From the NCBI RefSeq assembly GCF_020514115.1, contig NZ_VTKZ01000006.1, forward strand, positions 1 through 64,000: DNA of 64,000 bases. Reading direction: 5' to 3'. The DNA is from Synechococcus sp. MU1642. Lineage in GTDB: Bacteria; Cyanobacteriota; Cyanobacteriia; PCC-6307; Cyanobiaceae. Below are positions 35,181 to 62,501 of the stretch, piece by piece (the first letter of the stretch is position 1; every line of letters begins with the position of its first letter). A program made the translations under genes and the position numbers. The notes below the pieces were generated by a model. The model had not been told where the DNA came from. It saw only the letters and a program-made list of their open reading frames with translations, and did not search any database.

Positions 35181-35183
35181 ATC

Positions 35184-36439: not shown

Positions 36440-36498
36440 GGTGGGGATGCCTGTTGGGGCGACCCTAAGGAGATCCACCGCTCCATGCCGTCACTGAC

Positions 36499-39698: not shown

Positions 39699-39724
39699 GC
39701 CGCCACCTTATTTAGCCCGTGCGA

Positions 39725-40036: not shown

Positions 40037-40109
40037 GGCAGAAACTCTTTAAACAGAGCTTCAGTATGGAAAGAATTGGTGTGAATGACTACTAAATGAG
40101 CTGAATTGT

Positions 40110-40123
40110 GTAGCGGAATTAAC
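40110..40123. promoter_or_regulatory. NtcA-like site GTAGCGGAATTAAC before narM
   Basis: Matches GTA-N8-TAC except for A in place of the second T. It lies in the divergent gap between the small membrane gene and narM, about 190 bases before the narM start. The rest of the gap 40037-40314 shows no gene. Confidence 0.4.
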
Positions 40124-40314
40124 AGTTTCTATGGGATTAAAGCCCTGCATGGGTTGTTGTTGGAGTGCTTCAGCCGTGACCCATCCATGGGACATTCCCA
40201 GCAACATTCCAAGGGAGAGAGCGAAGCGCACAGACCATCATTTGTATCAAAGTAAACATCTCTGTTTTCGTGGACTTCCGTTGTCATCATTGACACCGAT
40301 CAAGGCTTTGGTTG

Positions 40315-42994: not shown

Positions 42995-43003
42995 TGAGGA
43001 ACC

Positions 43004-43039
43004 AAAAAAAGAACAAAACCCGGAGCCGAAGCTCCGGGT
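43004..43039 (-). terminator. Terminator/attenuator hairpin between nrtP and narB
   Basis: On the coding (-) strand ACCCGGAGC (43039-43031), a TTCG loop and GCTCCGGGT (43026-43018) form a perfect nine-base stem with a very stable UUCG tetraloop. It is followed by TTTGTTCTTTTTTT (43017-43004), a T-rich tract interrupted by a G and a C. It lies 37 bases after the nrtP stop, and the tract ends 9 bases before the narB ATG. It has every feature of an intrinsic terminator, so narB would be expressed by readthrough. Confidence 0.75.
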
Positions 43040-43076
43040 CGTTGTGCAGCGTCAGGGTGCTGCGGACGGAGATGGC

Positions 43077-44618
43077 TCAGGCGGTTTCGCCTTCGTGCAG
43101 GTCTGCAAAGGACCCCTTGGGCTCCTTCAGGAAGAAGAAGCAGAAGAAGGCCACAATCAGACCGGCCACGCCCAGGATCTGGAAGAAGGCACTGTTGGAA
43201 GCCGCGATCACCTCGGGGGTGGGTTCGCCGCCGCCGCCCATCCACATCGGCAGGAGGCTGAAGATGGTCAGGTAAGTCACAGCGCCAACGTTGCCGTAGG
43301 CACCAACCAGGCCGGCAACCTGACCGGTAACGCGACGTTTGACAAGGGGCACCAGCGCGAAGGTGGCGCCTTCACCGGACTGCACGAAGAAGGAGGCGAG
43401 CATGGTGATCACCACGGCAACAGCAATGCCGGTGGTGCCGGTGAAGGTGCCCGGCTTGATCATGCTCATCACCAGATACCCCACCCCGAGACCGGCGGTG
43501 AGGAAGCCCATGGTGTTCTTGCGGCTGCCGACGCGGTCGGAGATCAGTCCACCGGCAGGGCGCGCCACAAGGTTCACGAAAGCGAAGCAGGACGCCAGGA
43601 TTCCGGCGGTGGCCTTCGGCAGATCGAAGGTGGTTTCAAAGAAGGTAGGCAGCATCGAAACCACGGCTAGTTCGGAGCCGAAGTTCACGATGTAAGTGAG
43701 CTCGAGAATCGCCACCTGGCGGAACTCGTAGCGGTCTTCCTTGGGATAAACCTTGTTGCCAAGGATCAGGTCGCGGTTGGTGCGGATGATTCCCCAGGTT
43801 TGGAAGGCAAACCAGACGGCGACGGCACCGAGGGCCAGCGGGTAGGTGGCAGCGGTTAGGAAGCCCACCTTGCCGAGACGCCAGCAGAGCACGCAGAGGA
43901 TGGCTGCGAAGGGCACGTTCATGCCCAGAAGACCCCAAAAGTCGCGCATGGAGGTGACTTCCAGACCTGCGGTCTTGGCAGGGCGCTGATACGTCTTGCC
44001 GGGGGGGGTGTCGGTGACGTTGAAGAAGTAGAAGAAGCCGTAGGCAGCGGAGACGATGCCGGTCAGAGCGATTGCACCGCGCCAGTTCAGAACGGCGCCG
44101 GTGGGCAGTTCGAAGCCGCCGGAGAAGGAGAGGAAGCCTGCGAGGGCAACCATGGTGAGGGCGGAGAAGGCGGAGCCGAAGTTGCCCCAGCCGCCGTAGA
44201 TGCCTTCAGCCAGGCCGATTTCCTTGGGCGGGAACCACTCGGCCACCATGCGGATGCCGATCACGAAGCCAGCGCCGACGATGGAGAGCAGCAGACGGGC
44301 CACCACCAGCTGGTTGAAGTCCTGAGCGGAAGCAAACAGCAGGCATGGAATCGCCGAGAACACCAAGATCGAGGAGTAGGTAATCCGGGGTCCGAATTTG
44401 TCCAGCAGCATGCCGATCAGCACGCGCGCTGGGATGGTGAGGGCCACGTTGCAGATGGCCACGGTGCGGATTTGACCAACGGTCAGTCCGAGATCCGCTT
44501 TCACGGTGGTGGCCAGAGGGGCCAGGTTGAACCAGACCACGAAGGTCAGGAAGAAGGCGATCCAGGTCAGGTGAAGGGTTCGATACCTGCCCTGGAACGA
44601 CCAAAGGTCGCCAAGCAT
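43077..44618 (-). CDS. nrtP: Nitrate/nitrite permease NrtP (NNP family MFS)
   Basis: Imports nitrate and nitrite. 513 residues, 12 transmembrane segments, ATG at 44618. The family signature is GIYGGWGNFGSAFSALTM in helix 5, with ARVLIGMLLDKFGPR and CFAFVNLVARPAGGLISDRV (MFS motifs). Marine Synechococcus use this NNP-type permease (called nrtP or napA) rather than the ABC transporter of freshwater strains. The upstream gap of 274 bases holds NtcA-like GTAGCGGTTGCAAC at 44832-44845 and runs up to divergent mobA. Confidence 0.95.
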   Translation of the reverse strand: MLGDLWSFQGRYRTLHLTWIAFFLTFVVWFNLAPLATTVKADLGLTVGQIRTVAICNVALTIPARVLIGMLLDKFGPRITYSSILVFSAIPCLLFASAQDFNQLVVARLLLSIVGAGFVIGIRMVAEWFPPKEIGLAEGIYGGWGNFGSAFSALTMVALAGFLSFSGGFELPTGAVLNWRGAIALTGIVSAAYGFFYFFNVTDTPPGKTYQRPAKTAGLEVTSMRDFWGLLGMNVPFAAILCVLCWRLGKVGFLTAATYPLALGAVAVWFAFQTWGIIRTNRDLILGNKVYPKEDRYEFRQVAILELTYIVNFGSELAVVSMLPTFFETTFDLPKATAGILASCFAFVNLVARPAGGLISDRVGSRKNTMGFLTAGLGVGYLVMSMIKPGTFTGTTGIAVAVVITMLASFFVQSGEGATFALVPLVKRRVTGQVAGLVGAYGNVGAVTYLTIFSLLPMWMGGGGEPTPEVIAASNSAFFQILGVAGLIVAFFCFFFLKEPKGSFADLHEGETA

Positions 44619-44831
44619 TGAGGAGAAGAGAAGGAACCACGGGCTTCAAAAGGAAAGGTGCCCGGGGATGGCAAAACGGTCGAAAAAAGAATCCGTTTAA
44701 CCCGCGCAGTTAATCAATTCGTCGGGCCCATGTTTGGTCCGATTGGTTACCGATTTCTATTTTTCTGTTCCCCAGCAAACATCAACTTGGCTGATTGATC
44801 GGATCAGGTGTTCTTGTGCCGCGATGATTTG

Positions 44832-44845
44832 GTAGCGGTTGCAAC
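44832..44845. promoter_or_regulatory. NtcA-like site in nrtP/mobA gap
   Basis: GTAGCGGTTGCAAC fits GTA-N8-TAC with one mismatch (A for the second T). It is about 215 bases upstream of nrtP and close to the mobA start. No fitting -10 box was identified, so the role is inferred. Confidence 0.4.
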
Positions 44846-44892
44846 TTTTGTGGGCTGTTGGACTTCGCTGGTTCAGATTGTTGGTTGGCGAT

Positions 44893-45477
44893 GTGAGCCA
44901 AGGCTTGCGGGTTTGTTTACTTAGTGGCGGAAGTAGCCGTCGCATGGGGCGTGATAAGGCACTGTTGCCGCATCCCTCTGGCGGTGTCTGGCTCACGGCC
45001 CTGGTCGACCAGCTGCTGCCCCTCGGCCATCCGGTACAGGTGTTGAGTCGTCATGCCGCGCACGCAGAGCTGCTGACCCACCGGCCCGGATGTTCCGTGC
45101 TGCTGGAGCTCCCTCCCTGGAATGGCCCACTGCAGGCGTTGGCCAAGGTGCTGTCTCCGATGCCCGGCGAGGCCTTGCTGGTGCTGCCGGTGGACATGCC
45201 GCTTTTGCGCACCGCCGTTGTCCAGCAGCTCATCGCAGCCTGGAATCGTGCCCCGGAGCAAGCAGCGGTGGCCCATGACGGGCAGCGGCTGCAGCCGTTG
45301 CTGGCGGTGATCCCCTCAGGTTCTCCTTTCCGCCCCTGCCTCGATCAGCAACTCCAACGCGGTGAGTTGCGCTGGATGGACTGGTTGACCCGCGTTCCCC
45401 ATCAGACGGTGCGCTTGCCTGCAGAAGCTTTGTTGAATGCCAACTGTCCTGCAGATCTGGCAGCGTTGGAGGAATGA
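44893..45477 (+). CDS. mobA: Molybdenum cofactor guanylyltransferase
   Basis: MobA transfers GMP to the molybdenum cofactor, giving the guanine dinucleotide form needed by NarB. From the GTG at 44893 the protein is 194 aa and starts VSQGLRVCLLSGGSSRRMGR, in which LSGGxSxRMGxDK is the nucleotide-binding motif. Later comes LVLPVDMPLL (metal site). The frame is open to a TTG at 44839, but the added residues do not look conserved. It overlaps moaA by 4 bases (ATGA). Confidence 0.93.
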   Translation: MSQGLRVCLLSGGSSRRMGRDKALLPHPSGGVWLTALVDQLLPLGHPVQVLSRHAAHAELLTHRPGCSVLLELPPWNGPLQALAKVLSPMPGEALLVLPVDMPLLRTAVVQQLIAAWNRAPEQAAVAHDGQRLQPLLAVIPSGSPFRPCLDQQLQRGELRWMDWLTRVPHQTVRLPAEALLNANCPADLAALEE

Positions 45478-46517
45478 GCACTCCGCTGCCGCTTGCAGAT
45501 CGTTTCAACCGGCCCATCGGGGTGCTGCGGCTGTCGCTCACGGCCCGTTGCAATCTCGCCTGTCCGTACTGCTGTCCGGATGTGGAGGAGCCCCCTGGTC
45601 TGCTCACGCTTGAGCAGCAGCTGCGCGTCATTCGTGTGGCCGCGCGCCTGGGGGCACAGACACTGCGGCTCACCGGTGGAGAGCCGTTGTTGAGTCGGCG
45701 CTTGATGCCTTTGCTGGAGGCGGTGGCGCAGGCCCGGCGGGATTGTTCGGATCCGATCGCCGGTCTTCAGTCGGTGGCGCTCACCAGCAACGGGGTGCTG
45801 TTGTCGGAACCGATAGCGCGGGCGTTGCGTGCCGCAGGGCTGGATCGCATCACCATCAGCCTCGATGCAGCGGAAGGGGAGGCAGCGGCGCGCATGGCTG
45901 GTCTTCAGGGTGGCGCCGTGGCTGGGGACCGCCTGGTGCGCCAAGTGCAGGACGGAATCGCGGCGGCACAGGCTGCTGGTTTTGACCCTTCCTTCGGTGA
46001 GCTCAAGCTCAATGCTGTGATCCAAAGGGGGATCAATGACGATCAGCTGCTGCCCTTGGCCGGTTTGGCGCGGCAGCAGGGGGTGGAGCTGCGCTTGATC
46101 GAGTACATGGATGTGGGCAACCGCAACCAGTGGACGCTGGACCAGGTGCTGCCGGCGGCGCAGATGCTGGAGCGTATTCACGCCTGTTGGCCCCTTGAAC
46201 CTATGGGTCGTCCGCAGGGTGGGACGGCTCGACGTTGGCGCTATGGCGATGGCGCAGGATCCATCGGTGTGATCGCCTCCATCAGTGAGCCGTTCTGCGG
46301 TGATTGCAACCGGTTGCGTGTCACCGCCGATGGGCAGGCTTTCACCTGTTTGTTCTCGGCTGATGGCACGGATCTCAAGCCCGCGCTCGCGTCGGAGCTT
46401 CAGCTTGAGCAGGCCATGCGCCAGCTCTGGCAGCGGCGCCAAGACCGCTACAGCGAGGAGCGTGATCCAGCCGCCGCTGCGTCAACCCATGCGGAAATGG
46501 CATACCTGGGGGGCTGA
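45474..46517 (+). CDS. moaA: GTP 3',8-cyclase MoaA
   Basis: A radical-SAM enzyme that rearranges GTP in the first step of Moco synthesis. 347 residues, ATG at 45474. The N-terminal cluster motif is ARCNLACPYC (C-x3-C-x2-C). The second cluster sits in EPFCGDCNRLRVTADGQAFT (C-x2-C, then C further on). The protein ends in M-A-Y-L-G-G, the conserved diglycine. The LTGGEPLLSRR segment near residue 63 is the SAM-binding region. It is coupled to mobA by a 4-base overlap. Confidence 0.95.
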   Translation: MSTPLPLADRFNRPIGVLRLSLTARCNLACPYCCPDVEEPPGLLTLEQQLRVIRVAARLGAQTLRLTGGEPLLSRRLMPLLEAVAQARRDCSDPIAGLQSVALTSNGVLLSEPIARALRAAGLDRITISLDAAEGEAAARMAGLQGGAVAGDRLVRQVQDGIAAAQAAGFDPSFGELKLNAVIQRGINDDQLLPLAGLARQQGVELRLIEYMDVGNRNQWTLDQVLPAAQMLERIHACWPLEPMGRPQGGTARRWRYGDGAGSIGVIASISEPFCGDCNRLRVTADGQAFTCLFSADGTDLKPALASELQLEQAMRQLWQRRQDRYSEERDPAAAASTHAEMAYLGG

Positions 46518-46596: not shown

Positions 46597-47088
46597 ATGT
46601 TTGAACTGCTGGCCTACGAGCGCTTCCGCGACACCCCGTCGGTTCGTTTTTTCGACGTCACCGTGGACACCTCGAATGCGCGCGACCTGGTAATTCACAG
46701 CGGCCCGGCAGTGTCGCCTCCTAATGATCCTGAGAGCGGAGCCTGGCAGTTTTATCTGCATCCCCATCAGGAAGACAATCTGCTTGCGGCCAGTGGCGGC
46801 AGAACCTTCTTCTTGGTGAACCTGGCCTGGGAAAAGCCATTTCACATCGTTCGGCTCGAGAGCGGTGGTGACATCCTTCGTATCCCCCCCGGCACCTTCC
46901 ACCGCTCGATCTCCGATCCCGATGGTTCCGTCGTTTTGAACCAGGCGGTTCGTGAGGAAGGCGCTTCTCTGGTGCAGGAATTTCGCGTCTACAACAGCGC
47001 CGAGATCCCGGCCTTGATGGCAGCCACACTGAGCTCGGCTCCGAAGCCCCAGTTGCATGGGGTGGAACCTCTGCTTCAGGCGGCCTGA
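46597..47088 (+). CDS. Cupin-like conserved protein
   Basis: 163 residues from the ATG at 46597, with AAGGATCC direct repeats just upstream. The pattern FYLHPHQEDNLLAASGGRTF, then a pause and IPPGTFHRSISDPDGS, matches cupin motif 1 (H-x-H...E) and motif 2 (P-x-G-x-x-H), so a single-domain metal-binding beta-barrel is likely. Such proteins can be isomerases, oxygenases or sensors. The substrate is unknown. It overlaps the transglutaminase gene by 13 bases tail to tail and is downstream of moaA without an evident terminator. Confidence 0.6.
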   Translation: MFELLAYERFRDTPSVRFFDVTVDTSNARDLVIHSGPAVSPPNDPESGAWQFYLHPHQEDNLLAASGGRTFFLVNLAWEKPFHIVRLESGGDILRIPPGTFHRSISDPDGSVVLNQAVREEGASLVQEFRVYNSAEIPALMAATLSSAPKPQLHGVEPLLQAA

Positions 47089-47975
47089 ACCAAGTTTCGT
47101 GAGGAGGTCTCCGTTCCGGAGGTTTCCTCGTTGATCTGTATCTGCCAATTCAGTTCACTTGTGGTTTCGGGGGGACCACTGAAGCTGCCGCTCACGGCTG
47201 CGGTGAGTTCGGGCTTGGACGAGGTGGCAAGTACCACATAGCGATCGTTGACTTCCACGCCGGCACTGGGGTCAAAGCCGCGCCAGCCCGCTCCTGGCAG
47301 GTAGACCTCCGCCCAGGCATGCAGGTCGTAGTCCTTCGGGGGAGGTTGCTGCAGTTGATAGCCGCTCACGAAGCGGGCGGGAAGACCCACCACGCGGCAG
47401 CAGGCCACCATCAACATGGCCAGATCACGGCAGGAGCCGATCCGCTCGCGCAGGGTTCGGCCCGCTGGCCAGGCCGGCCCCACATGGCGTTGGGTGTATT
47501 TCACCCGCTCTTGAATCAGTTCAATCAGTTGCTTCAGAAAGGCCAGGGTCTGCTGGTTGCTTCCCATCAGCGCTTCCTGGGTGAGCTCTATGGCCGCAGG
47601 TTCGTGCTGGCCATTGGGCAACCAGCCTTCCAAGGCTCCCTGCAGATCGCTGTTGAGCTGCCCTTGCGGGTAAGGCAAGGGTGGTTCGAGTCCGTTGAAG
47701 CAGATCTCTAGCGGAGGTGCCGGTCGGGTCTCCACCAGGCTGCGGGCTTCAAAGATCAGTTCATCAGTGCTGCCGAGAAAGCGGAGCCGTTGGATTTCGT
47801 CGCCGCTGGCGGCCACCAGTTCCCGACGTTGTTCCGGTTCCGGCAGCACGCTCAGTTGATGCTCCAGAAGGGTCTGAAACCCTTGCCCTCGGGGTCTCAG
47901 ACAGAGGCGATGCTCTCCCAGATACACCGGGGCTTCATACCGATATGTCAGGCGGTGAACGATGAGAGCGCGCAT
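47076..47975 (-). CDS. Transglutaminase-like protein
   Basis: 299 residues, ATG at 47975. An N-terminal beta-rich domain (residues 1-80, MRALIVHRLTYRYEAPVYLG) is followed by a transglutaminase-like catalytic core. The cysteine lies in GSCRDLAMLMVACCRVVGLP, the histidine in DLHAWAEVYLPGAGW and the aspartate in FDPSAG. It sits third in the ATP-grasp, alpha-E, transglutaminase cluster that recurs in bacteria, where a peptide-ligation and cleavage system has been proposed. The substrate is not known. Confidence 0.88.
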   Translation of the reverse strand: MRALIVHRLTYRYEAPVYLGEHRLCLRPRGQGFQTLLEHQLSVLPEPEQRRELVAASGDEIQRLRFLGSTDELIFEARSLVETRPAPPLEICFNGLEPPLPYPQGQLNSDLQGALEGWLPNGQHEPAAIELTQEALMGSNQQTLAFLKQLIELIQERVKYTQRHVGPAWPAGRTLRERIGSCRDLAMLMVACCRVVGLPARFVSGYQLQQPPPKDYDLHAWAEVYLPGAGWRGFDPSAGVEVNDRYVVLATSSKPELTAAVSGSFSGPPETTSELNWQIQINEETSGTETSSRNLVQAA

Positions 47976-48943
47976 GCGGGATCGGTGGGAACGGAACGGA
48001 GGTCGGCGCTGGTGAAGTAGCGGGTCTGGATCAGGCTGTGAAGTTGGTTGAGGTCCTGCTGAAGCTGGTCAATAGCTTCATGCAGACCGGCTTCGATCAA
48101 GTTGTCGATCCGCACATAGCTCCAGCGGGCCAGGAGCTGTCCGCGCAAGCAGTCGAGGTCATCTGGGGTGTCTTGGCTCGGGTGCTGCTGGATTTGTTGC
48201 AAGGTGTCGCTGATGCCCTGGAGGCAATACCGAACCGATCGAGGAAAGCTGGGATCCAGCAGCAAAAAGCGGGCCACCGCTGCAGGGCTGATCGCTTGCT
48301 GCACGCTCTGGCGGTACATCTGATAGGCGCCCGCTGTGCGCAGCAGGGTGATCCACTGCAATTCATCCAGCACGCCGCCCACCTCCTCGGGGGAGGGCAG
48401 CAGCAGGAAGTATTTGACGTCGAGGATGCGGGAGGTTTTGTCGGCGCGTTCGATCAAACGTCCCAGCTGACTGAACAGCCAGCTCAGATCACGGCTCAGG
48501 GTGGTGTCAGTGATCCCGTACATGAGCTGGCAGCCACGCCGAATGATCCGCAGTTGCTCCTGCACCGGTTCCCGCCAGATGTCTTCGTCGTCCTGCAGGG
48601 TCCAGTGCAGATCATTGATCTGCTCCCACATCTCCGTGGTGATCACATCCCTGATCTGCCGTGCGTTTTCCCGGGCCATCGCAATGCAACTCACGATGCT
48701 GTTGGGATTGCTGCGGTCCAGCAGCAGGAAGCGCACCACCTGTTTCGGCGTGGCATCGGGATAGGCCGTATCAAAGCGGTGGCGATCCCCCGTCACCTCC
48801 ACCAAGGGCAGCCAAGGCTCGGCGCTGCCCGGAGGACAGTCCAACGCCATCGCTTCGCTCACTTCCAGAAAACGCGAGATGTTTTCGGCGCGTTCCAGAT
48901 AGCGATTGATCCAGTAGAGCGAATCGGCGACGCGACTCAACAC
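47948..48943 (-). CDS. Alpha-E domain-containing protein
   Basis: 331 residues from the GTG at 48943. The start VLSRVADSLYWINRYLERAE, the central QVVRFLLLDRSNPNSIVSCI and many helices with D-x-x-E pairs are those of the alpha-E family (all-helical, function unknown). It overlaps the ATP-grasp gene by 7 bases upstream and the transglutaminase gene by 28 bases downstream, which indicates one transcript and coupled translation. Confidence 0.9.
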   Translation of the reverse strand: MLSRVADSLYWINRYLERAENISRFLEVSEAMALDCPPGSAEPWLPLVEVTGDRHRFDTAYPDATPKQVVRFLLLDRSNPNSIVSCIAMARENARQIRDVITTEMWEQINDLHWTLQDDEDIWREPVQEQLRIIRRGCQLMYGITDTTLSRDLSWLFSQLGRLIERADKTSRILDVKYFLLLPSPEEVGGVLDELQWITLLRTAGAYQMYRQSVQQAISPAAVARFLLLDPSFPRSVRYCLQGISDTLQQIQQHPSQDTPDDLDCLRGQLLARWSYVRIDNLIEAGLHEAIDQLQQDLNQLHSLIQTRYFTSADLRSVPTDPACALSSFTA

Positions 48944-50412
48944 GGCACAGCCTCCTTTGGCTGCGGTGCTGCTATCCGTTGGTCGTCGACGATCCAGGTG
49001 TCCTTGCAACCGCCCCCTTGGGATGAATTCACCACCAGTGAGCCCCGCTTGAGGGCCACCCGCGTCAGCCCCCCTGGGCTCACCCAGTTGCTGGCGCCGC
49101 GCAGCACATAGGGGCGCAGATCCACGTGGCAGGGGTAGAGCTCACCGTCACTAAGGGATGGCACGGTGGAGAGCTGCAGCGTGGGCTGTGCGATGAAATT
49201 GCGTGGATTCTCACGGATCTTGGTGTCGAAGTCAGCCAGTTCCGATCGGCTGGCCTGGGGGCCGATCAGCATTCCGTAGCCCCCGGCTTCCGCCACTGAT
49301 TTCACTACTAGTTGCTCGAGGTGTTCGAGCACATAGCGCTGATCGTCTGGCCGGGCACAGAGATAGGTGGGAACGTTCTCGATGATTGGCTCCTCATCGA
49401 GGTAGTAGCGGATCATTCCCGGCACATGGGCATAGATCAGCTTGTCGTCGGCGACGCCGGTGCCAGGAGCATTGGCGATGGCGACCCGTCCTTGCCGCAG
49501 CACATCGATTATTCCCGGCACCCCAAGCATTGAGTCCTTGCGGAACACGGTGGGATCAAGAAAATCATCGTCGATGCGGCGGTAGATCACATCCACGGGT
49601 TCGAGGCCACTGGTGCTGCGCATCCACACCCGGCCGTCTTCGCAGACCAGGTCGCGTCCCTCCACCAGTGCAATGCCCATCTGCTGGGCCAGATAGCTGT
49701 GCTCGAAATAGGCGCTGTTGAACACCCCGGGGGTCAGGATCGCCACGCGGGGGCTGTCACTCCAGGGCGCCAGGTCCTGAAGGGTGCGCAGCAGATGGGA
49801 GGGATAGGCGTCGATTGGTTGAACGGCACGGCCCTCGAACAGGCCAGGGAACAACCTTTTCATCACCCGACGATTCTCGAGGAAATAGGCCACCCCCGAT
49901 GGACAGCGCAGGTTGTCTTCCAGCACACGCCAGGTGCCATTGCCGTCGCGAATCAGGTCGAGCCCGGAGATGTGGCACCAGCGGTTGAGGGGCAGACTGA
50001 TGCCCTGCATCTGGGGTCGCCAACCGGAGGAACTTTCCACGTCTTCACGCGGGATCACACCGTCGTTGAGGATCTGCTGGGGGCCGTAGATGTCGGCGAG
50101 GAAGCAGTCGATGGCTTCCAGGCGTTGCAGTAGTCCCCGCTCCAGGTTGATCCAGTCGCTGCGGCCGATCAGTCGGGGCAAGGGATCGAAAGGAAGAATC
50201 CGTTCACTGCCCTTGAGCCCGGAATCGTTCAAGCGGAAGGTGGCGCCGAGGCGACGCAGCAGCTGGCTGGCCGAGGCATGGCTGCGGTTGAGCTCGGGTA
50301 ATCCCAGCTGCCCCAGTGATGTGAGCAGAGTGGCCAGATCGTCGCGAGGTCTCGCCGTTTCACTGCAGAAATATTCGTCGAAGCCGACCGTGGGTTTGTA
50401 GTCGGTGAACAT
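48937..50412 (-). CDS. Circularly permuted ATP-grasp protein
   Basis: 491 residues from the ATG at 50412 (MFTDYKPTVGFDEYF). An ATG 8 codons upstream at 50436 is the alternative. The order of motifs (SGLDLIRDGNGTWRVLEDNL, RRVMKRLFPGLFEG, RVAILTPGVFNSAYFEHSYL, VVKSVAEAGGYGMLIGP) matches circularly permuted type-2 ATP-grasp proteins, which ligate amines to carboxylates through acyl phosphates. It heads the alpha-E and transglutaminase operon. An inverted repeat lies just upstream at 50464-50478. Confidence 0.9.
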   Translation of the reverse strand: MFTDYKPTVGFDEYFCSETARPRDDLATLLTSLGQLGLPELNRSHASASQLLRRLGATFRLNDSGLKGSERILPFDPLPRLIGRSDWINLERGLLQRLEAIDCFLADIYGPQQILNDGVIPREDVESSSGWRPQMQGISLPLNRWCHISGLDLIRDGNGTWRVLEDNLRCPSGVAYFLENRRVMKRLFPGLFEGRAVQPIDAYPSHLLRTLQDLAPWSDSPRVAILTPGVFNSAYFEHSYLAQQMGIALVEGRDLVCEDGRVWMRSTSGLEPVDVIYRRIDDDFLDPTVFRKDSMLGVPGIIDVLRQGRVAIANAPGTGVADDKLIYAHVPGMIRYYLDEEPIIENVPTYLCARPDDQRYVLEHLEQLVVKSVAEAGGYGMLIGPQASRSELADFDTKIRENPRNFIAQPTLQLSTVPSLSDGELYPCHVDLRPYVLRGASNWVSPGGLTRVALKRGSLVVNSSQGGGCKDTWIVDDQRIAAPQPKEAVPC

Positions 50413-50463
50413 TCCGATGGTCTGCGCGTATGTCATCCAAGGCGTCGCCCCAACCCCCTTTGG

Positions 50464-50519: not shown

Positions 50520-50738
50520 TTGGGTATCCGTAGGCACCTGTATGGAGGGCGCAGGGCGAGGGTTTGGTGCCTCCTTTGCTTATCTGTTTTTGGATTTCAA
50601 ACGCTCTTCGCCTTGGATGAATTGCTCTGGGCCCGACTGATCTTTGCCCTTGGTGCCGTTGTGACTGCGGCGACGGTGGTGATGATTCTGCGCGGACATA
50701 TCTATTGGAACCGCAGGGGGTCGACGGATGTCCGCTGA
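50520..50738 (+). CDS. Small two-segment membrane protein
   Basis: 72 residues from a TTG at 50520, with a basic N-terminus (MGIRRHLYGGRRAR) and two hydrophobic segments, VWCLLCLSVFGFQTLFAL and LIFALGAVVTAATVVMIL. It ends N-R-R-G-S-T-D-V-R. Its 3' end overlaps the symporter start by 11 bases, so it is likely translated with it, perhaps as an accessory subunit. A later TTG would shorten it. No family was recognised. Confidence 0.5.
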   Translation: MGIRRHLYGGRRARVWCLLCLSVFGFQTLFALDELLWARLIFALGAVVTAATVVMILRGHIYWNRRGSTDVR

Positions 50739-52158
50739 CTCGGTTCCCTTCCTACAGCCCGGGATCGCCTGGGCGCTGGTGGTGCTGTTCTCTGTTCTCT
50801 GGGTGGCGCTCGGGATTGCCTGGGGCCGGCGCGGGCAAGGCAATGCCGACGACTACATGCTGGCGGGGCGCAACATCGGGCTGGCCCTGAGTACGGCCAC
50901 GTTGATGGCCTCCTGGGTCACCGGCAACACCACCCTGCTCGCCCCTGAATTCGGCTACAAAACCGGTCTCTGGGGCATGTTCAGCTATGCCCTGGCCGGG
51001 CTTGGCCTGATTTTGTTCGCCCCCCTGGCTTCGCGGATCAAGCAACTGATGCCCAACGGGCGCACCAGCGGCGACTTCATTCGCCTGCGCTACGGGCGTC
51101 TGGCCTGGTGGGTGTTCATGCTGATCACCGCGGTCTACACCCTGGGCTTTCTGATGACCCAGGCGATGGGTGCTGGCCTGCTGCTGCAGGCCCTTTCAGG
51201 CTTCGACTACCACGTGGGAATGGTGGTGGTGATTGGTGTCGCCACCGTGTACACCCTGTTCGGCGGAATGCGGGCCGTGATCGGCACCGATTTCATTCAG
51301 TCGCTGTTGATCATGGTGCTGCTGGCGGTGGTGGCGGTGCTCGCCTTCCGGCAATTCCCTATGCCCGAGGTGCATGCTTCCTTGCTGGCCCGGCATCCCG
51401 ATCGGCTTGATCTGCTGTTGCCGGCGGGCTTGTTGATTGCCTGGAATTCCGCCCTCTTTTCGATGGGCGAAGTGTTTCACAACAACATCTGGTGGTCCCG
51501 GGTCTTCGCCAGTCGGCGTTCGGTGGTGATGACCTCTTTTGTATTGGGGGGAATCGCCTGGATGAGCGTGCCGATGGTGACGGGCTCAATCGGCCTGGTG
51601 GCCCTGGCGCGTGAGTTGCCCCTCGAGCAGGTGAACATGGTGTTCCCAGTGATGGCGGCTGATCTGCTCGGGGCTGGCGGAGCGGCTTTGGTGTTTGTGG
51701 TGGTGTTTGCCTCGCTCACCTCCACCCTGGACTCGCTGCTGGCGTCCACCGCCGATCTGCTGGCGGAGGATGTCTATTTTCGCCTGTTGCGGCCCCAGGC
51801 CAGTGACCTGCAGTTGAAGCAGGCGGCGCGGCTGATGGTGGTGGGGTTGGCCGTCGTCACCCTGGCGCTGTCCTGGCCGAGGTTGGATTCGCTGGCTTCG
51901 GTGCTGTTCTTCACCGGTGCCCTGGTGGCCTCCACGGTCTGGCCTGTGGCGTGCGGTTTGTATTGGCGCACGGCCAACCGCACGGCTGCTATTGCGGCCA
52001 TGCTTGCCGGCAGCGTTGTGGGCCTGCTCGCCTATGTGCTGATCGCGCCCTATTGCGCTGCTGTGTTTTCGGCGGCCGTGTCGGCGGTTGTGATGCTGAT
52101 GGGCAGTCGGATCTGGCCGGAACGCTTTGACTTCACCTTTTTGCAGGAGGAGGGATGA
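50728..52158 (+). CDS. Sodium:solute symporter (SSS family)
   Basis: 476 residues, around 13 transmembrane segments. Sodium/solute symporter features are YMLAGRNIGLALSTATLMASW in the first helices, GTDFIQSLLIMVLLAVVAVL, and FASLTSTLDSLLASTADLLA near residue 335 (the family's sodium-site serines and threonines). SSS members carry sugars, amino acids, urea, nucleobases or allantoin-type solutes. The substrate is open. Neighbouring amide and carbamoyl enzymes make a nitrogenous solute likely. ATG at 50728. It overlaps the next small frame by 4 bases. Confidence 0.9.
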   Translation: MSADSVPFLQPGIAWALVVLFSVLWVALGIAWGRRGQGNADDYMLAGRNIGLALSTATLMASWVTGNTTLLAPEFGYKTGLWGMFSYALAGLGLILFAPLASRIKQLMPNGRTSGDFIRLRYGRLAWWVFMLITAVYTLGFLMTQAMGAGLLLQALSGFDYHVGMVVVIGVATVYTLFGGMRAVIGTDFIQSLLIMVLLAVVAVLAFRQFPMPEVHASLLARHPDRLDLLLPAGLLIAWNSALFSMGEVFHNNIWWSRVFASRRSVVMTSFVLGGIAWMSVPMVTGSIGLVALARELPLEQVNMVFPVMAADLLGAGGAALVFVVVFASLTSTLDSLLASTADLLAEDVYFRLLRPQASDLQLKQAARLMVVGLAVVTLALSWPRLDSLASVLFFTGALVASTVWPVACGLYWRTANRTAAIAAMLAGSVVGLLAYVLIAPYCAAVFSAAVSAVVMLMGSRIWPERFDFTFLQEEG

Positions 52159-52465: not shown

Positions 52466-53581
52466 ATGGCACAGGCCAAATCAGCAGTTGTGGACGCGTC
52501 GTCGGTCCAGATTCGGTTTGAGCCGATGGGGCCCGATGTCTACGGGCAGAACCAACCTCAGGAGCTGTTGGCTGCGATTGCCGAAGACGTTGAGCCTTTG
52601 AAGGATTTGGTGGATCAGCACGTGGTGTCGATCCAACCGTTTCGCCCCGAGGCTTTGTTGCAGGTGTTTCGCCTGGCGGCGAAGTTTGAGAGCAATCCAG
52701 ATCGCTATTGCCGTCACAACACGCCACTCACCGGCAAGATTCTGATCAACGCGTTTTACGAACCAAGCACGCGGACCCGGCTGTCTTTTGACAGTGCCTG
52801 GCACCGACTCGGCGGTACCTCCATCAACATCACCGATAGGGCCACCACAGGGATTGCCAAGGGCGAGTCTCTCGAAGATGTCGCCCATATGTTCAACAAC
52901 TATGGCGATTGTGTGGTGCTTCGGGATAGCGATCCCGGTGCCGTTTATGCAATGACGTCCACCCTTCGGATCCCGATCATCAATGCTGGAAATGGGATCG
53001 ATGAGCATCCCACCCAGGCGATGGCCGATCTCTACACAATCTTCAAGTGGCGTCCCCAGCTCGCTGAGTTGGACGTGGCACCTGCAGATCGGATTCGAAT
53101 TGGGATCGTCGGGATTCCCTCGCGGATGCGAACGGTTCGCTCCCTGTTGAGGATCCTGGCCAAATTCCCGCAGACGGTGGACGAGGTGGTAGTAATTCAC
53201 GCCCCCGGGTTGGAGCCGGATCAGCCGCTGTTCGACCCAGGACAGTTGGAGGAGCTTGAAGCGTGTGGGATGAAGGTGCGCTCCAGCACCGATCTGCAGG
53301 CTGAAGTGCCCGACTTGGATGTCGTTTACATCAACGCCATCGCCTGGGTGGGTGATTCCTATGAAGTGCACGGCGGAGGATTTCGCCTCACCCGCGACAT
53401 GCCATTTAAACCGGAGGCGATTGTGCTCCATCCCTTGGCGCGGGGAGCGGAACTCAGCACCTGCCTGGATGACACGCCCCACAACTGGTATTTCAGTCAG
53501 GCCAGGGGAGCCGTGTTCCTGCGGATGGCCCTGCTCACCTGCATGGTGGATCGGGCCGAACGCGTGATGGATGTGATCTGA
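52466..53581 (+). CDS. Aspartate carbamoyltransferase-like protein with altered acceptor loop
   Basis: 371 residues. Carbamoyl-phosphate-side residues are intact: STRTR (101-105), K132 in AKGESLED, R153, HPTQ (181-184) and R222 in RMRTVRSL. The HPLARG and TPHNWYF segments are ATCase-like. The aspartate-binding segment, normally T-R-V-Q-K-E-R, reads I-N-A-I-A-W-V-G-D-S-Y-E (residues 289-300), so the arginine and glutamine that hold aspartate in PyrB are missing. I infer a transcarbamylase acting on another amine. It is followed by asnB after 9 bases. It could also be an inactive or structural paralogue. Confidence 0.8.
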   Translation: MAQAKSAVVDASSVQIRFEPMGPDVYGQNQPQELLAAIAEDVEPLKDLVDQHVVSIQPFRPEALLQVFRLAAKFESNPDRYCRHNTPLTGKILINAFYEPSTRTRLSFDSAWHRLGGTSINITDRATTGIAKGESLEDVAHMFNNYGDCVVLRDSDPGAVYAMTSTLRIPIINAGNGIDEHPTQAMADLYTIFKWRPQLAELDVAPADRIRIGIVGIPSRMRTVRSLLRILAKFPQTVDEVVVIHAPGLEPDQPLFDPGQLEELEACGMKVRSSTDLQAEVPDLDVVYINAIAWVGDSYEVHGGGFRLTRDMPFKPEAIVLHPLARGAELSTCLDDTPHNWYFSQARGAVFLRMALLTCMVDRAERVMDVI

Positions 53582-53590
53582 GGCGATCTG

Positions 53591-55615
53591 ATGTGCGGAA
53601 TCGGAGGTGTTTTTAATGCAGATCGTCAACAGACGGTGGATCGCCAGCTGCTGGTCAACATGGCGGCGATCCAGGCCCATCGCGGGCCCGACGGCTTCGG
53701 GGTTGAGGTGCTCGATCAGGCTGGCGTCGGCTTCTGCCATGCGCGCCTTTCGATCATTGACCTGAACGAGTCGCGGGCTCGGCAGCCCTTCCTCACAGAT
53801 GACGGTGAGGTGCTGATGGCCCACAACGGTGAGTTTTACGACTTCCAGCGCATCAGGGCTGACCTCACCGCCCAGGGGGTGCGCTTCAGCAGCAAGAGTG
53901 ATTCAGAGATCCTGCTTCGGCTCTACCAACGCCAGGGGTTAGAGGCGACCCTGCCTCTGTTGCGCGGTGAGTTCGCCTTCGCCTTGTTTGATCGGGCAGA
54001 GGACTGCCTCTACCTAGTGCGGGATCGCTTCGGCATCAAACCGCAGTACTGGGCGATGACGCCCGAGGGGCTGGTGTTCGGTTCCGAGTTGAAGGTGCTC
54101 TTCGCCCATCCGGCGGTGGAGCGACGCTTCACCTCGGAAGGTCTCTTTCACCAGTTGATGCAGACCATGGTCCCCGGCACCACAGCCTTTGCGGGGGTGC
54201 ACCAGGTGAAGCCCGGCCATGTGCTGAAGGTGCAACGGGTGAGTGGGCGGCTGGAGGTATCGGAGTCCACCTACTGGGATGTCGACTTTCCGCGTAAAGA
54301 CGAGCGGGACTCCAACCGAACTGAGGCCGAGCACATCGCTGCCGTTCGTGCGGCGTTGCTGGAGGCCGTTGAGCTGCGCATGGTGGCCGACGTGCCCGTG
54401 GGTTGTTACCTCTCCGGCGGCATCGACAGCTGTTCGATCCTCGGCTTGGCGTCAGCCGTCAGCCAGGCACCGGTGAAGGCGTTCACGATTGGATTTGATG
54501 ACGCTCGTTACGACGAGTCGCCGATCGCCCGGGAGATGGCCGAGGCCACGGGGGCTGAGCAGGATCTGATGCGTCTTTCGGGCCAGGAGCTCTATGGCCA
54601 TATGGAGCGCACCATCTGGCACGCCGAGCGAACGATCTACAACACCTTGGCGGTGGCGAAGTTCTTGATGAGCCGCCACGTCAACGATGTGGACTACAAA
54701 GTTGTGATGACCGGTGAAGGCTCAGATGAGCTGTTCGGCGGCTATCCCGCCTTTCGCCGCGACATGTTCCTGCACGGTTTGGATGACCTGCCGCCGGAGG
54801 AGCGCGCCAGCTGGGAAAGCCTTTTGCAGCAGTCCAATGCCCTGGTTCAAGGGGCGATGCTGGCTGAAAACCAGGTGGATGATCCCGATCTCGATGCGGT
54901 CGTCGGCTTCACCCCCAGCTGTCTGCAGCCGTGGCTGGCCTGCGCGCCCTTGGTGCCTGAGCTTCTGGCGCAGTCCCATGCCGAAGCCCTGAAGGATTAC
55001 TCCCCGGGCAAGGCGATTGCCGAGCAACTGGATGCGGATCAACTGGACGGGCGCCATGCCCTGGATAAGGCCCAGTACGTCTGGATCAAGACCATGCTGG
55101 AGGGCCAGATCCTCACCTGGGGTGGCGACCGGGTCGACATGGCCAATTCCATGGAGGCCCGACCAGCCTTCCTGGATCATCATCTGGCAGCAGTGGCGGT
55201 GCAGGTGCCGCCCGAACTGCGGATCAAGGGGAAAACCGAGAAATACGTGCTGCGGGAAGCCATGGCGGGCCTGTTGCCGGAGGTGTTGTACCGGCGTGAG
55301 AAGTTCGCCTTCATGGCGCCGCCAGCCCACACTGAGCCTGAGAAGTGGGAGCAGATGAAGCAGCTCGCCGACGACTACCTCAGTGATGAGGTGATCGATG
55401 CCGCTGGTTTGTTGAGCAAAGCCGGAGTGCATGCATTGTTTGCGCGTCACGAGGACCCGGCTACCACTGATGCGGAGCGTGTGCAGATGGATGCGGTGAT
55501 AAACCACCTGCTGGGTGTGCAGATGCTGCACCGCATGTTTGTGGCCGAAGACGTGCCAGCCCTGGCCCGTCGGGAGGCTGACCGTCTGGGCTGGCGGGTG
55601 CTGATGCCCGTTTGA
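53591..55615 (+). CDS. asnB: Asparagine synthase, glutamine-hydrolysing (AsnB type)
   Basis: 674 residues starting M-C-G-I-G-G, with Cys2 as glutaminase nucleophile. The N-terminal glutaminase domain has AHRGPDGFGVEV, ARLSIIDL and AHNGEFYDF. The synthetase domain (from about residue 260) has YLSGGIDSCSI, the ATP PP-loop, and EGSDELFGGYPAF. Normally it makes asparagine from aspartate with glutamine and ATP. A C-terminal extension of about 100 residues makes it longer than E. coli AsnB (554). AsnB-like enzymes also amidate other carboxylates, so the acceptor here is uncertain. It follows the carbamoyltransferase after 9 bases. Confidence 0.9.
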   Translation: MCGIGGVFNADRQQTVDRQLLVNMAAIQAHRGPDGFGVEVLDQAGVGFCHARLSIIDLNESRARQPFLTDDGEVLMAHNGEFYDFQRIRADLTAQGVRFSSKSDSEILLRLYQRQGLEATLPLLRGEFAFALFDRAEDCLYLVRDRFGIKPQYWAMTPEGLVFGSELKVLFAHPAVERRFTSEGLFHQLMQTMVPGTTAFAGVHQVKPGHVLKVQRVSGRLEVSESTYWDVDFPRKDERDSNRTEAEHIAAVRAALLEAVELRMVADVPVGCYLSGGIDSCSILGLASAVSQAPVKAFTIGFDDARYDESPIAREMAEATGAEQDLMRLSGQELYGHMERTIWHAERTIYNTLAVAKFLMSRHVNDVDYKVVMTGEGSDELFGGYPAFRRDMFLHGLDDLPPEERASWESLLQQSNALVQGAMLAENQVDDPDLDAVVGFTPSCLQPWLACAPLVPELLAQSHAEALKDYSPGKAIAEQLDADQLDGRHALDKAQYVWIKTMLEGQILTWGGDRVDMANSMEARPAFLDHHLAAVAVQVPPELRIKGKTEKYVLREAMAGLLPEVLYRREKFAFMAPPAHTEPEKWEQMKQLADDYLSDEVIDAAGLLSKAGVHALFARHEDPATTDAERVQMDAVINHLLGVQMLHRMFVAEDVPALARREADRLGWRVLMPV

Positions 55616-55709: not shown

Positions 55710-56999
55710 TTGCCCACGCTCATCTCGGCTTCTCCGACTAAACCCGCAACCGAGAGCGAGCCAAGCAAATTTGCTGCGCGACCAAACCGTGATCGTTTGA
55801 TTGCAACGATTGAGCAGCTGGCCAGCATTGGTGCCAAGCCCGATGGCAGCGTTTGTAGACGCGGGTTCTCGCCTGAGGATGTGCAGGGCCGTGAGTTGCT
55901 GGCCCATTGGATGAAGCAGCTCGGCATGCAGGTGCGTGTCGATGCTGCTGGCAACTTGATCGGACGCTTTGAAGGCCTTGATCCCGATTGTCCTGCCTTG
56001 GTCACCGGGTCTCACCTCGACACGGTTCCTACTGGTGGACGTTTTGATGGGGCTCTGGGAGTGTTGGCCGGTCTGGAAGTCTGCCGCGCTCTTCAAGACC
56101 AGGGCCTGCGCCTGCGTCATGGAATCGAGTTGATCGCCTTTGCCGACGAGGAGTCGACCATGGTGGGCTGCAAAGGTTTGACGGGCACGGCCTCCGATGA
56201 CCCGGAGAGTTTTGCCACCAGCAATGGCCAGCCGATTCAGGACAATCTGGCGCGCATCGGCGGGCATTGGCCCTCCTTGGCCTCGGCCCGACGCTCCGAT
56301 GAGGCCTATGCCGCCTTCCTGGAGTTGCATGTTGAGCAGGGCGGTGTTCTCGAGCAACGCGGTGATGCCATTGGTGTTGTGGAGGGTGTTGTCGGTCAGC
56401 GTCGGTTCAGCATCAAGGTGCAGGGCCAGGCCAACCACGCCGGTACGACACCGATGGGGCTGCGACAGGACGCCCTCGTGGCGGCCTCGCGTCTTGTTCT
56501 TGCCGTCGAAGCCATGGCTTCCCGTCATCCCGGAGATCCGGTGGCGACTGTTGGTCGACTTGAGGTTTGGCCTAATGCAGCCAATGTTGTCCCCGGCGCT
56601 GTCGCCCTGACGGTTGACCTGAGGGATGTTGATCCGACCGTTCTTGATCAGTTGGTGGAGGAGTTGATGCAGCAGGTGGAACGCATCGGTGCTGAAACGG
56701 GCTGTCCCATTGCGGTGGATCCCCAGTTCAGCGTTGACCCCACCCCTGCTGATGCTGTGGTACTGGCCACGATCACTGAGGTCGCAGCCGATCTCGGCCT
56801 GTCCCACAGCCATCTCCCCAGCAGAGCCAGCCACGATGCCCAGGAGGTCGGCCGTCGCTGGCCGATGGGCATGATTTTTGTGCCCAGCAAGGGGGGCTTG
56901 AGTCATTCTGCTGCAGAGTTCACCAGCGATGAGCAGTGCTGTGCAGGTACCGCGGTGCTGCTGGAAACGTTGCTGCGGCTCGACCGTCACCTGCCGTGA
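55710..56999 (+). CDS. M20 amidohydrolase, N-carbamoyl-L-amino-acid hydrolase/allantoate amidohydrolase type
   Basis: 429 residues from a TTG at 55710 (the first ~25 are poorly conserved and a later start is possible). Zinc-site and family motifs are TGSHLDTVPTGGRFDGALG near residue 97, FADEESTMVG near residue 148, FLELHVEQGGVLEQ near residue 206, GQANHAGTTPMGLRQDAL near residue 241 and SRASHDAQEVG near residue 370. This order is that of the hydantoinase/carbamoylase family, which frees ammonia and CO2 (or a ureide) from N-carbamoyl amino acids, allantoate or ureidoglycine. It overlaps DUF1028 by 4 bases. The exact substrate is unknown. Confidence 0.88.
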   Translation: MPTLISASPTKPATESEPSKFAARPNRDRLIATIEQLASIGAKPDGSVCRRGFSPEDVQGRELLAHWMKQLGMQVRVDAAGNLIGRFEGLDPDCPALVTGSHLDTVPTGGRFDGALGVLAGLEVCRALQDQGLRLRHGIELIAFADEESTMVGCKGLTGTASDDPESFATSNGQPIQDNLARIGGHWPSLASARRSDEAYAAFLELHVEQGGVLEQRGDAIGVVEGVVGQRRFSIKVQGQANHAGTTPMGLRQDALVAASRLVLAVEAMASRHPGDPVATVGRLEVWPNAANVVPGAVALTVDLRDVDPTVLDQLVEELMQQVERIGAETGCPIAVDPQFSVDPTPADAVVLATITEVAADLGLSHSHLPSRASHDAQEVGRRWPMGMIFVPSKGGLSHSAAEFTSDEQCCAGTAVLLETLLRLDRHLP

Positions 57000-57670
57000 C
57001 CTTTTCAATCCTGGCCCGTGATCCCAACAACGGTCGTTTTGGTGTGGGTGTGGCCACCTGCCATATGGCAGTTGGATCCACCGTCCCCCACATCCGTGCG
57101 GGGGTTGGTGCTGTTGCCACCCAGGCCCACACCAATCCGTATTTGGGGATTTGTGGCCTGGAGCGTCTGGAGCAGAGTTCGGATGCAGAGAGCGTTCTGG
57201 CCAGCCTTCTCGCGGATGATCAGCACCGTGATCGGCGTCAGTTTCACCTGATTGACCTGGACGGTCGCACGGCCTGTTGGACGGGGCAGGATTGTGGCTC
57301 TTGGGCAGGGCATCGCCATCAGCGTGACCTCTCCGTTGCTGGCAATTGTTTGGCGGAAGAGGCCGTGTTGGCGGCTATGCAGCAAGCCTTCCTCACCAGC
57401 GACCCCAGCTTGAAACTGGGCCGTCGCCTGATGATGGCTCTTCAAGCTGGGGAAGCGGCTGGCGGTGATCACCGTTCCAACCTCTGCACCTCAGCGGCTG
57501 TGCAGGTGAGCGGCGAAGCTGCGTTCCCGCTGTTGGATCTGCGCGTTGATTTTCACGAGCGCGCTGTGGAGCAGTTGATGGAGGTGTACGAGCGCAGTCA
57601 GGATCTTTGGGCCCAGCAGTGGAGGGATGAACTGTCTGAATTGCCCATGCTCAACCGCTTGGTGGCTTGA
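56996..57670 (+). CDS. DUF1028 family protein
   Basis: 224 residues from a GTG at 56996 that overlaps the amidohydrolase stop (GTGA). The N-terminus VTFSILARDPNNGRFGVGVA and the block TVPHIRAGVGAVATQAHTNP are those of DUF1028, an uncharacterised family with an Ntn-hydrolase-like fold. GDHRSNLCTSAAVQV and LRVDFHERAVEQL follow. Translational coupling makes it a likely partner of the amidohydrolase. Its first residue after the initiator (T, or T/S nearby) could serve as an N-terminal nucleophile. Confidence 0.85.
   Translation: MTFSILARDPNNGRFGVGVATCHMAVGSTVPHIRAGVGAVATQAHTNPYLGICGLERLEQSSDAESVLASLLADDQHRDRRQFHLIDLDGRTACWTGQDCGSWAGHRHQRDLSVAGNCLAEEAVLAAMQQAFLTSDPSLKLGRRLMMALQAGEAAGGDHRSNLCTSAAVQVSGEAAFPLLDLRVDFHERAVEQLMEVYERSQDLWAQQWRDELSELPMLNRLVA

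Positions 57671-59166: not shown

Positions 59167-59170
<4 letters not shown>
58412..59170 (-). CDS. Class I glutamine amidotransferase-like protein
   Basis: 252 residues from a TTG at 59170 that overlaps the ureC stop (TTGA). An ATG at 59158 is the alternative start. [24 protein letters not shown] with the nucleophile cysteine, and [14 protein letters not shown] with the H and E of the triad show an intact glutaminase. The sequence resembles GMP-synthase-like amidotransferases of unknown acceptor. As the last gene of the ureA-B-C transcript, it may handle an amine in nitrogen metabolism. Confidence 0.8.
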
Positions 59171-60876
<1,706 letters not shown>

Positions 60877-60879
60877 GGG

Positions 60880-61200
60880 TCAGGCGTCGAGGGGTCCGTT
60901 GATCTGGCCGTTGAAGCCAATGACGCGTCGCGCACCGGCGAAGGGAATCAGGTTCACATCGCGACTGTCGCCGGGTTCGAAGCGGATGGCGGTGCCGGCG
61001 GGGATGTCGAGCCGTTGACCGCGGGCTGCGGTCCGGTCGAACTGCAGGGCGGCGTTGGCTTCGGCAAAATGGAAATGGGAGCCCACCTGCACTGGCCGGT
61101 CGCCGCTGTTGGAGACGCTCAGCGTGGTGACGGGTCGGCCTGCATTCAGCTCTAGTTCACCCGGTTCGGGAAGCAGTTCGCCTGGAATGAGAGGTGCCAT
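60880..61200 (-). CDS. ureB: Urease subunit beta
   Basis: 106 residues from the ATG at 61200, starting [38 protein letters not shown] and [20 protein letters not shown] are typical. Structural subunit packed between UreA and UreC in the (abc)3 trimer. An in-frame upstream start at 61281 overlaps ureA and is not preferred. Ten bases lie between ureA and ureB, 3 between ureB and ureC. Confidence 0.95.
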
Positions 61201-61210
61201 GGGTTCTGCC

Positions 61211-61513
61211 TCAGCGAATCGGGTCGTGCAGGGTGACGAGCTTTGTGCCATCGGGGAAGACGGCTTCGATCTGCACCTCATGGACGAGCTCGGGCACGCC
61301 CTCCATTACCTGGTCCTGACGCAGCCAGGTGGTGCCTTCCTGCATCAGCTCCGCCACGCTCTTGCCGTCACGGGCGCCTTCCAACACCAGAAAACTCAGC
61401 CAGGCCACCGCTTCGGGGTGGTTGAGCTTGAGGCTACGGTTCAAGCGCCGCTCGGCAAGAAGTGCCGCGGTCACGATCAGGAGCTTGTCCTTTTCCTGGG
61501 GACTGAGATGCAT
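61211..61513 (-). CDS. ureA: Urease subunit gamma
   Basis: 100 residues, ATG at 61513, starting [20 protein letters not shown], followed by [31 protein letters not shown] in pieces that match the gamma chain, and [19 protein letters not shown]. Smallest structural urease subunit. Located between ureD and ureB in one leftward run. Confidence 0.96.
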
Positions 61514-61576
61514 GGCGAAGCTCGGTCTTCTTCAGTGTGTCTCCGCTGCAGCCTCGGAAGCGTTCACAGTGGACGT

Positions 61577-62467: not shown

Positions 62468-62501
62468 GGCCTCACGCTCCGCCGCCACCGGCTTCGACTA
62501 T

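Follow-up and report, generated by a model that had tools for sequence, protein, structure and literature searches.

A transcarbamoylase lacking the aspartate-binding residues, coupled to an AsnB-like amidotransferase in marine Synechococcus: candidate genes for carbamoyl-glutamine amide synthesis

In the N-acetylglutaminylglutamine amide pathway, an AsnB-type enzyme amidates a blocked glutamine derivative, giving a neutral osmolyte; to our knowledge, no carbamoyltransferase takes part in this pathway. Carbamoyl-glutamine amide (CGA), an uncharged glutamine derivative in which both the amine and the carboxyl group are masked, is a compatible solute described in 1991 and found in E. marismortui (PMC1224877). 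According to a 2013 paper (PMC3857566), CGA was found in one organism only, is a minor solute and went undetected by Raman in E. marismortui, and a 2020 paper (PMC7824335) counts it among the solutes of purple sulfur bacteria more widely. We found no description of genes for CGA in an open-access library; other journals may differ. For the transcarbamoylases, work on Arabidopsis aspartate transcarbamoylase (ATC) with PALA places the alpha-carboxylate on R248 and the beta-carboxylate on R310 and Q312, with K166 from the adjacent subunit close to the phosphonate as well as to the two carboxylates (PMC7878868).

Here, we describe a gene cluster in a 64,000-nucleotide stretch of DNA from Synechococcus sp. 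MU1642 (referred to below, at its full length, as the window), in which the gene for an aspartate carbamoyltransferase (ATCase)-like protein, CT, is followed 9 bases past its stop codon by the gene for an AsnB-like amidotransferase (Table 1). Together, the two enzymes likely make some carbamoylated neutral amino-acid amide, and the coupling of the genes, the logic of the acceptor-site residues and the taxonomy of the carriers point to CGA, formed via N-carbamoyl-glutamine, as the probable product. The locus lies within an apparent nitrogen-assimilation region (window 29717-46517 and 59167-62488), with a NarK-family transporter and MoaA (assigned by model) and nitrate reductase-, nitrite reductase- and formate/nitrite transporter-like ORFs (assigned by eye) on one flank and the urease alpha subunit (by model) on the other. 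A divergent cassette on the minus strand (window 47076-50436) encodes transglutaminase-like, Alpha-E and circularly permuted ATP-grasp proteins. We considered these genes as pathway parts and rejected them, as the cassette stands beside the cluster in only five of 80 contig loci (L021, L023, L024, L025 and L029), many of the 80 being too short to judge; the linkage is probably no more than synteny in marine Synechococcus.

Table 1. Coordinates of the locus in the window, with assigned or proposed roles
Feature	Position	Strand	Basis
Sodium:solute symporter (SSS/SSF), possible solute uptake, substrate inferred	50728..52158	+	PF00474, 109.4 bits
CT, ATCase-like N-carbamoyltransferase, proposed L-glutamine N-alpha-carbamoyltransferase	52466..53581	+	Profiles, alignment, model, tree
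R222 codon (E. coli R167), proposed alpha-carboxylate binder	53129..53131	+	R in 97/97 rows; Arabidopsis R248 equivalent (PMC7878868)
INAIAWVG (CT residues 289-296), where ATCase has its aspartate loop (R229, Q231)	53330..53353	+	Alignment
AsnB-like amidotransferase (glutamine-dependent), proposed to turn the alpha-carboxylate of N-carbamoyl-glutamine into an amide	53591..55615	+	TIGR01536, PF00733, catalytic residues, co-occurrence
M20 hydrolase, N-carbamoyl-amino-acid hydrolase/allantoate amidohydrolase group, proposed decarbamoylation during reuse	55710..56999	+	NCBIfam
DUF1028 protein, proposed second reuse hydrolase, function inferred from place only	56936..57670	+	PF06267, 222 bits from residue 22

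The CT reading frame is open throughout and encodes 371 amino acids, which match PF02729 (134.8 bits) and PF00185 (53.6 bits), that is, both halves of the aspartate/ornithine carbamoyltransferase fold. Its listed NCBIfam matches include 17 transcarbamoylase models, and CT scores below the curated cut-off of every one; the PyrB model TIGR00670 gives 193.2 bits against a cut-off of 236.95, and the ornithine carbamoyltransferase (OTC) model TIGR00658 gives 98.5 against 280.85. Identities as an OTC or as a putrescine, N-acetylornithine or YgeW-type enzyme were rejected, every score being under its cut-off. The solved structures closest by sequence are ATCases (best 60 of 76). A structure model built from alignment A1, which holds 34 family members chosen for diversity, has a mean pLDDT of 79 and is poor at residues 1-27, 101-105 and 328-331, with a mean of 61 over residues 291-300. 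The matches listed for it by Foldseek (best E 6.8e-20) and by VIA (best Z 31.5) are ATCases; with VIA the E. coli chains align at a Z of about 30 over 300 residues at 2.9 A; these ATCase rows leave room for likeness to other transcarbamoylases. As judged from sequence and model, CT has an ATCase fold and an ATCase-type carbamoyl-phosphate site.

For the acceptor site, E. coli PyrB (L101) was aligned with 97 CT rows, made up of the window and 96 of the 97 loci L004-L100 (L077, with a stop within its frame, was left out). S52, T53, R54, T55, K84, R105, H134, Q137, R167, T168, H265, P266 and L267 are identical in all 97 rows. At the position of R229 the rows carry A (91), S (5) or T (1), and at that of Q231 A (92), S (3), V (1) or T (1); T228 is replaced by N and K232 by W throughout. 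S80 corresponds to G in 97/97 rows, a pairing that is unsure because a one-residue gap adjoins it. The rows are not independent, because they were collected by similarity to the window and include 26 Prochlorococcus-like ones (L033-L058); the invariants are the same in the diverse 34-row alignment A1. Because the pattern holds across the gathered rows, it is no accident of one sequence. Matched by spacing, Arabidopsis R248, R310, Q312 and K166 are E. coli R167, R229, Q231 and K84, so that the CT family has kept the equivalents of R167 and K84 and has lost those of R229 and Q231.

An earlier note on this DNA, made from sequence alone, had reported that R54, K84, R105, H134, Q137 and R167 are kept, that the segment with R229 and Q231 is replaced by INAIAWVG and that CT is not an ornithine enzyme either. 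That observation is confirmed across the gathered rows: the first six residues are invariant in all 97 rows compared with E. coli PyrB, the two others are Ala, Ser, Thr or Val in every row, and CT, besides its low TIGR00658 score, lacks the DxWxSMG ornithine loop (the window reads INAIAWVG) and has HPLA, not an HCLP-type motif. The INAIAWVG stretch does align gap-free with the DVWxSMG loop of OTCs, yet the tree places CT on the PyrB side. The note's interpretation, a different acceptor that would be a perhaps uncharged or smaller amine, is partly supported. An uncharged side chain on the acceptor is plausible, because the residues that hold the side-chain carboxylate of aspartate are missing; 'smaller' finds no support, as exchanging R and Q for A widens the pocket and glutamine exceeds aspartate in length; and 'amine' can be narrowed, because R167 is kept in 97/97 rows and the acceptor should therefore be an alpha-amino acid, not any amine. 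The sequences lead us to infer that the acceptor is an alpha-amino acid whose alpha-amine receives the carbamoyl group and whose side chain is neutral and somewhat larger. Glutamine fits the kept R167 and the lost R229 and Q231.

The earlier note overlooked both the amidotransferase coupled to CT and the other genes of the locus, which together suggest what is made. Since the amine and the carboxyl group of glutamine are both masked in CGA, one carbamoylation and one amidation are needed, and a carbamoyltransferase and an amidotransferase are encoded together here, as CGA biosynthesis would need. In the model that we infer for the acceptor, the order of the steps, the product and its role in salt stress, CT would transfer the carbamoyl group of carbamoyl phosphate onto the alpha-amine of L-glutamine to give N-carbamoyl-glutamine; the ATCase-type half of the site would bind carbamoyl phosphate, R222 would hold the alpha-carboxylate and the side-chain pocket would be neutral. 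Using glutamine and ATP, the AsnB-like enzyme would then convert the free alpha-carboxylate of N-carbamoyl-glutamine into an amide, leaving CGA without charge. CGA would then act as a compatible solute; its four nitrogens per molecule would perhaps also make it a nitrogen reserve, a role worth testing given that number and the nitrogen-gene setting of the locus. A counterpoint is that an osmolyte with four nitrogens is expensive for oceanic Prochlorococcus, which is poor in nitrogen; this argues against a plain osmolyte.

The same logic could apply to another acceptor, the product being a carbamoylated neutral amide from asparagine, or from glutamate with both carboxyls amidated. The residue pattern indicates an alpha-amino acid whose side chain is not acidic and does not single out glutamine; the kept K84 could pair with a side-chain carboxylate; and the M20 model nearest to the window's hydrolase is an N-carbamyl-L-glutamate amidohydrolase. 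Against this, glutamate is disfavoured by the absence of R229 and Q231, and we know of no other carbamoylated neutral amino-acid amide that is a solute, whereas CGA is known from the sister species of a carrier. We regard a different acceptor as unlikely, though the likeliest of the rival readings.

The taxonomy that favours CGA comes from the carriers, which include Synechococcus, Prochlorococcus, Cyanobium, Kangiella, Alteromonas, Pseudoalteromonas, Thioalkalivibrio, Nitrosomonas halophila and Ectothiorhodospira, most of which we take to be marine or halophilic. By sequence, the CT and AsnB cluster is present in E. mobilis DSM 237 (L096), a sister species of the reported CGA producer. NCBI has merged E. 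marismortui with E. mobilis, and genome work keeps the two apart (PMC8877833), at an average nucleotide identity of about 93%. The cluster is also present in genome G713, which is 93.6% identical to E. mobilis over 17 kb, with 68.6% G+C there, and may be E. marismortui. The species magna, in which betaine and ectoine biosynthesis are seemingly absent according to PMC7824335, carries the CT and AsnB pair, as does the T. species cited beside it there. One genome of the window's own family (G372) has two symporter-CT-AsnB clusters (L006 and L020), with CTs 98% and 75% identical to that of the window. Contigs binned as a gammaproteobacterial MAG (L026) and a Trichodesmium MAG (L035) are probably misbinned, because they hold picocyanobacterial versions of the cluster.

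The AsnB-like protein (674 amino acids) passes the asparagine synthase model TIGR01536 (429.3 bits, cut-off 267.1) and matches PF00733 with 309.5 bits, and the catalytic residues examined are identical in 89/89 rows. Of 117 contig loci found, 80 were kept, 39 in the cyanobacterial group and 41 in the gammaproteobacterial group. The AsnB gene adjoins that of CT, in the same orientation, in 37 and 40 of these; both cyanobacterial exceptions run out of contig (0 and 275 bases left), and the gammaproteobacterial one is Thiorhodospira sibirica, with a 65% identical AsnB elsewhere in its genome. The same arrangement is found in all 17 loci of the window's own phylum (L004-L020) and in 19/22 loci of a gammaproteobacterial class sample; of the other three, two stop at a contig end, and in L140 the AsnB gene next to CT does not stay open in a single frame. 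This class sample covers 369 Gammaproteobacteria and is centred on G389, itself picked as a carrier; CT (E <= 1e-90) and AsnB (E <= 1e-150) each occur in 23 of the 369, in identical sets of genomes (G389 among them) and mostly as neighbours. The figure of 4.7e-37 for this agreement assumes independent genomes and is no real probability. Among 386 genomes of the window's own phylum, CT (E <= 1e-60) occurs in 17 and AsnB in 19, including all 17. Two CT matches were found among 398 genomes in the phylum of G389, namely the centre itself and G870, whose CT is divergent (44%) and has AsnB, a symporter and an M20 gene nearby.

A looser linkage, in which AsnB would make the cell's asparagine and CT an unrelated N-carbamoyl compound, draws on the same protein, which scores above the asparagine synthase cut-off and is the only near-full-length Asn_synthase match in its genome, so that AsnB may make asparagine. 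Two cyanobacteria of other families, G005 (L160) and G170 (L161), have an AsnB that is 60% identical, only two transcarbamoylases and no CT beside AsnB; AsnB can therefore serve something else, and an exclusive link to CT becomes less likely. The AsnB gene of G005 adjoins genes for a DUF1028 protein and a dipeptide-type ABC transporter and perhaps acts on another capped amino acid or peptide. Set against this are the identical 23-genome sets, E. mobilis, which keeps AsnB beside CT despite further, more distant AsnB relatives (best 34%), and Thiorhodospira sibirica, which has both genes though they do not adjoin. An independent function for each enzyme is, in our view, improbable. In Thiorhodospira sibirica (G387; L092 and L157), CT and AsnB lie apart in the genome, and we saw no M20, isochorismatase or symporter gene within 8 kb of CT.

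Under CGA synthesis, the remaining genes of the locus would serve recovery and reuse: the symporter would recover CGA from outside the cell, and CGA would be broken down by the M20 enzyme together with a second hydrolase, the DUF1028 protein in cyanobacteria and an isochorismatase-family protein in many Gammaproteobacteria. Presumably, one hydrolase would open the 1-amide before the M20 enzyme removes the carbamoyl group. The best NCBIfam match of the window's M20 protein is ErtE (N-carbamyl-L-glutamate amidohydrolase, NF058540), with 430.7 bits and the cut-off of 520 not reached; its solved relatives include N-carbamoyl-L-amino acid hydrolases. Two gammaproteobacterial M20 enzymes match best the generic subfamily PRK09290.1-5, under equivalog cut-offs, and the isochorismatase-family protein shows weak likeness to biuret hydrolase, RutB and N-carbamoylsarcosine amidohydrolase, also under equivalog cut-offs. 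Judged by sequence, the nearness of M20 to the N-carbamyl-glutamate hydrolase model counts for CGA, and the M20 and isochorismatase scores below cut-off count against it. DUF1028 has one solved relative, a hypothetical protein; the true start of its gene is probably near 56999, because the listed ORF overlaps the M20 gene.

For loci that extend 5.5 kb or more in both directions, genes were counted at any position; in the order cyanobacterial, gammaproteobacterial and class-sample loci, M20 genes are found in 17/17, 32/36 and 15/15, symporter genes in 4/17, 31/36 and 11/15, DUF1028 genes in 17/17, 0/36 and 0/15, and isochorismatase-family genes in 0/17, 7/36 and 15/15. In the own phylum, 16 of 17 loci (L004-L020) have the symporter gene upstream of CT, as do many loci of Gammaproteobacteria; the Prochlorococcus-like loci L033-L058 showed none. 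Class-sample loci usually run M20, isochorismatase, symporter, CT and AsnB; E. mobilis has M20, isochorismatase, CT and AsnB, without the symporter. Just upstream of the gammaproteobacterial symporter lies a gene for a small protein that begins like a signal sequence and has a hydrophobic segment near its C-terminus (L062:5889-6425; similar in L065, L066, L082 and L084), which has no Pfam match in these five examples and is perhaps a transporter accessory.

A symporter and two hydrolases would also suit a catabolic direction, in which the M20 enzyme and CT would degrade an imported ureido compound and CT would release carbamoyl phosphate by phosphorolysis. A role for CT as a catabolic transcarbamoylase feeding carbamate kinase was rejected: the kinase was over its cut-off in 0/7 carriers, with weak partial matches in all seven (of the control genomes, only 2/14 pass that cut-off), so that reverse operation of CT for ATP is unlikely. 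Such a scheme would have little use for an AsnB that consumes ATP, and the Prochlorococcus-like loci do without the symporter; we think degradation slightly less probable even than two unrelated enzymes.

That CT might after all act on aspartate, as a redundant or altered ATCase with a rearranged loop, is favoured by its ATCase-like fold, its place in the tree and the low confidence of the modelled loop, and is the least probable reading of those weighed here, being opposed by a normal PyrB with R229 and Q231 in the same genome, by PyrB and OTC in 6/6 further carriers and by the lack of any invariant basic residue at 285-314 that could replace the lost ones. In detail, the Synechococcus genome (99.98% complete) holds exactly three PF02729 proteins, namely CT, PyrB at C21 and OTC at C22; the earlier note had proposed a search for a canonical PyrB, and the one at C21 retains the R and Q of the aspartate loop (LRLQKER). 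Each of the six further carriers checked also has three PF02729 proteins, CT, PyrB and OTC, sorted by tree and, for L118 and L119, by tblastn. The tree unites 22 CT-family rows, some duplicates included, in a single group (100/99) that branches on the PyrB side, away from the OTCs; its exact place is unsure because of long branches. A shifted loop supplying the aspartate-binding residues, which the note had named as grounds against its reading, was not seen at CT residues 285-314, where the 34-row alignment A1 has no invariant Arg or Lys and the nearly invariant K315 follows; this is judged by sequence, because the model is weak there. CT as a second PyrB was accordingly rejected, with R229 and Q231 lost in 97/97 rows and a normal PyrB in its own genome and in the six others.

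With CGA synthesis thus preferred, a wider view, which we hold tentatively, is that marine Synechococcus, Prochlorococcus and many marine Gammaproteobacteria might make CGA via a dedicated glutamine N-carbamoyltransferase and the AsnB-like enzyme, as a widespread nitrogen-rich osmolyte, a nitrogen reserve and exchanged dissolved organic nitrogen. CGA has so far been reported from few purple bacteria or a single one. If the proposal is true, glutamine would join the few known acceptor specificities of transcarbamoylases, a compatible solute would gain candidate genes, and CGA would be predicted in some of the ocean's most abundant phototrophs. The best scores in the cluster belong to aspartate carbamoyltransferase, asparagine synthase and allantoate/N-carbamyl-glutamate amidohydrolase models, and ordinary names may therefore hide a pathway.

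Compared with described systems, CT shares with PyrB (TIGR00670) the fold, the carbamoyl-phosphate residues, R167 and the HPL motif, and differs from it in the missing R229 and Q231, the loop INAIAWVG, the score under the cut-off, the coupling to an amidotransferase and the separate PyrB in the genome. OTC (TIGR00658) belongs to the same superfamily, with a common carbamoyl-phosphate half and a loop that aligns without gaps; unlike CT, which keeps R167 and reads HPLA, both aligned OTCs have N at this position, and their motif is of the HCLP type. ErtE (NF058540) is the best NCBIfam match of the window's M20 protein, which falls short of its cut-off (430.7 vs 520 bits), and the gammaproteobacterial M20 enzymes prefer PRK09290.1-5. 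An AsnB-type amidation is proposed here as in the N-acetylglutaminylglutamine amide pathway (TIGR03104), whose model gives the AsnB-like protein 302.1 bits, below the cut-off of 570.1. For CGA itself, the accessible parts of PMC1224877, PMC3857566 and PMC7824335 name no genes. Its structure requires that glutamine be carbamoylated exactly once and amidated exactly once, at the alpha-carboxyl, the two activities proposed for CT and AsnB.
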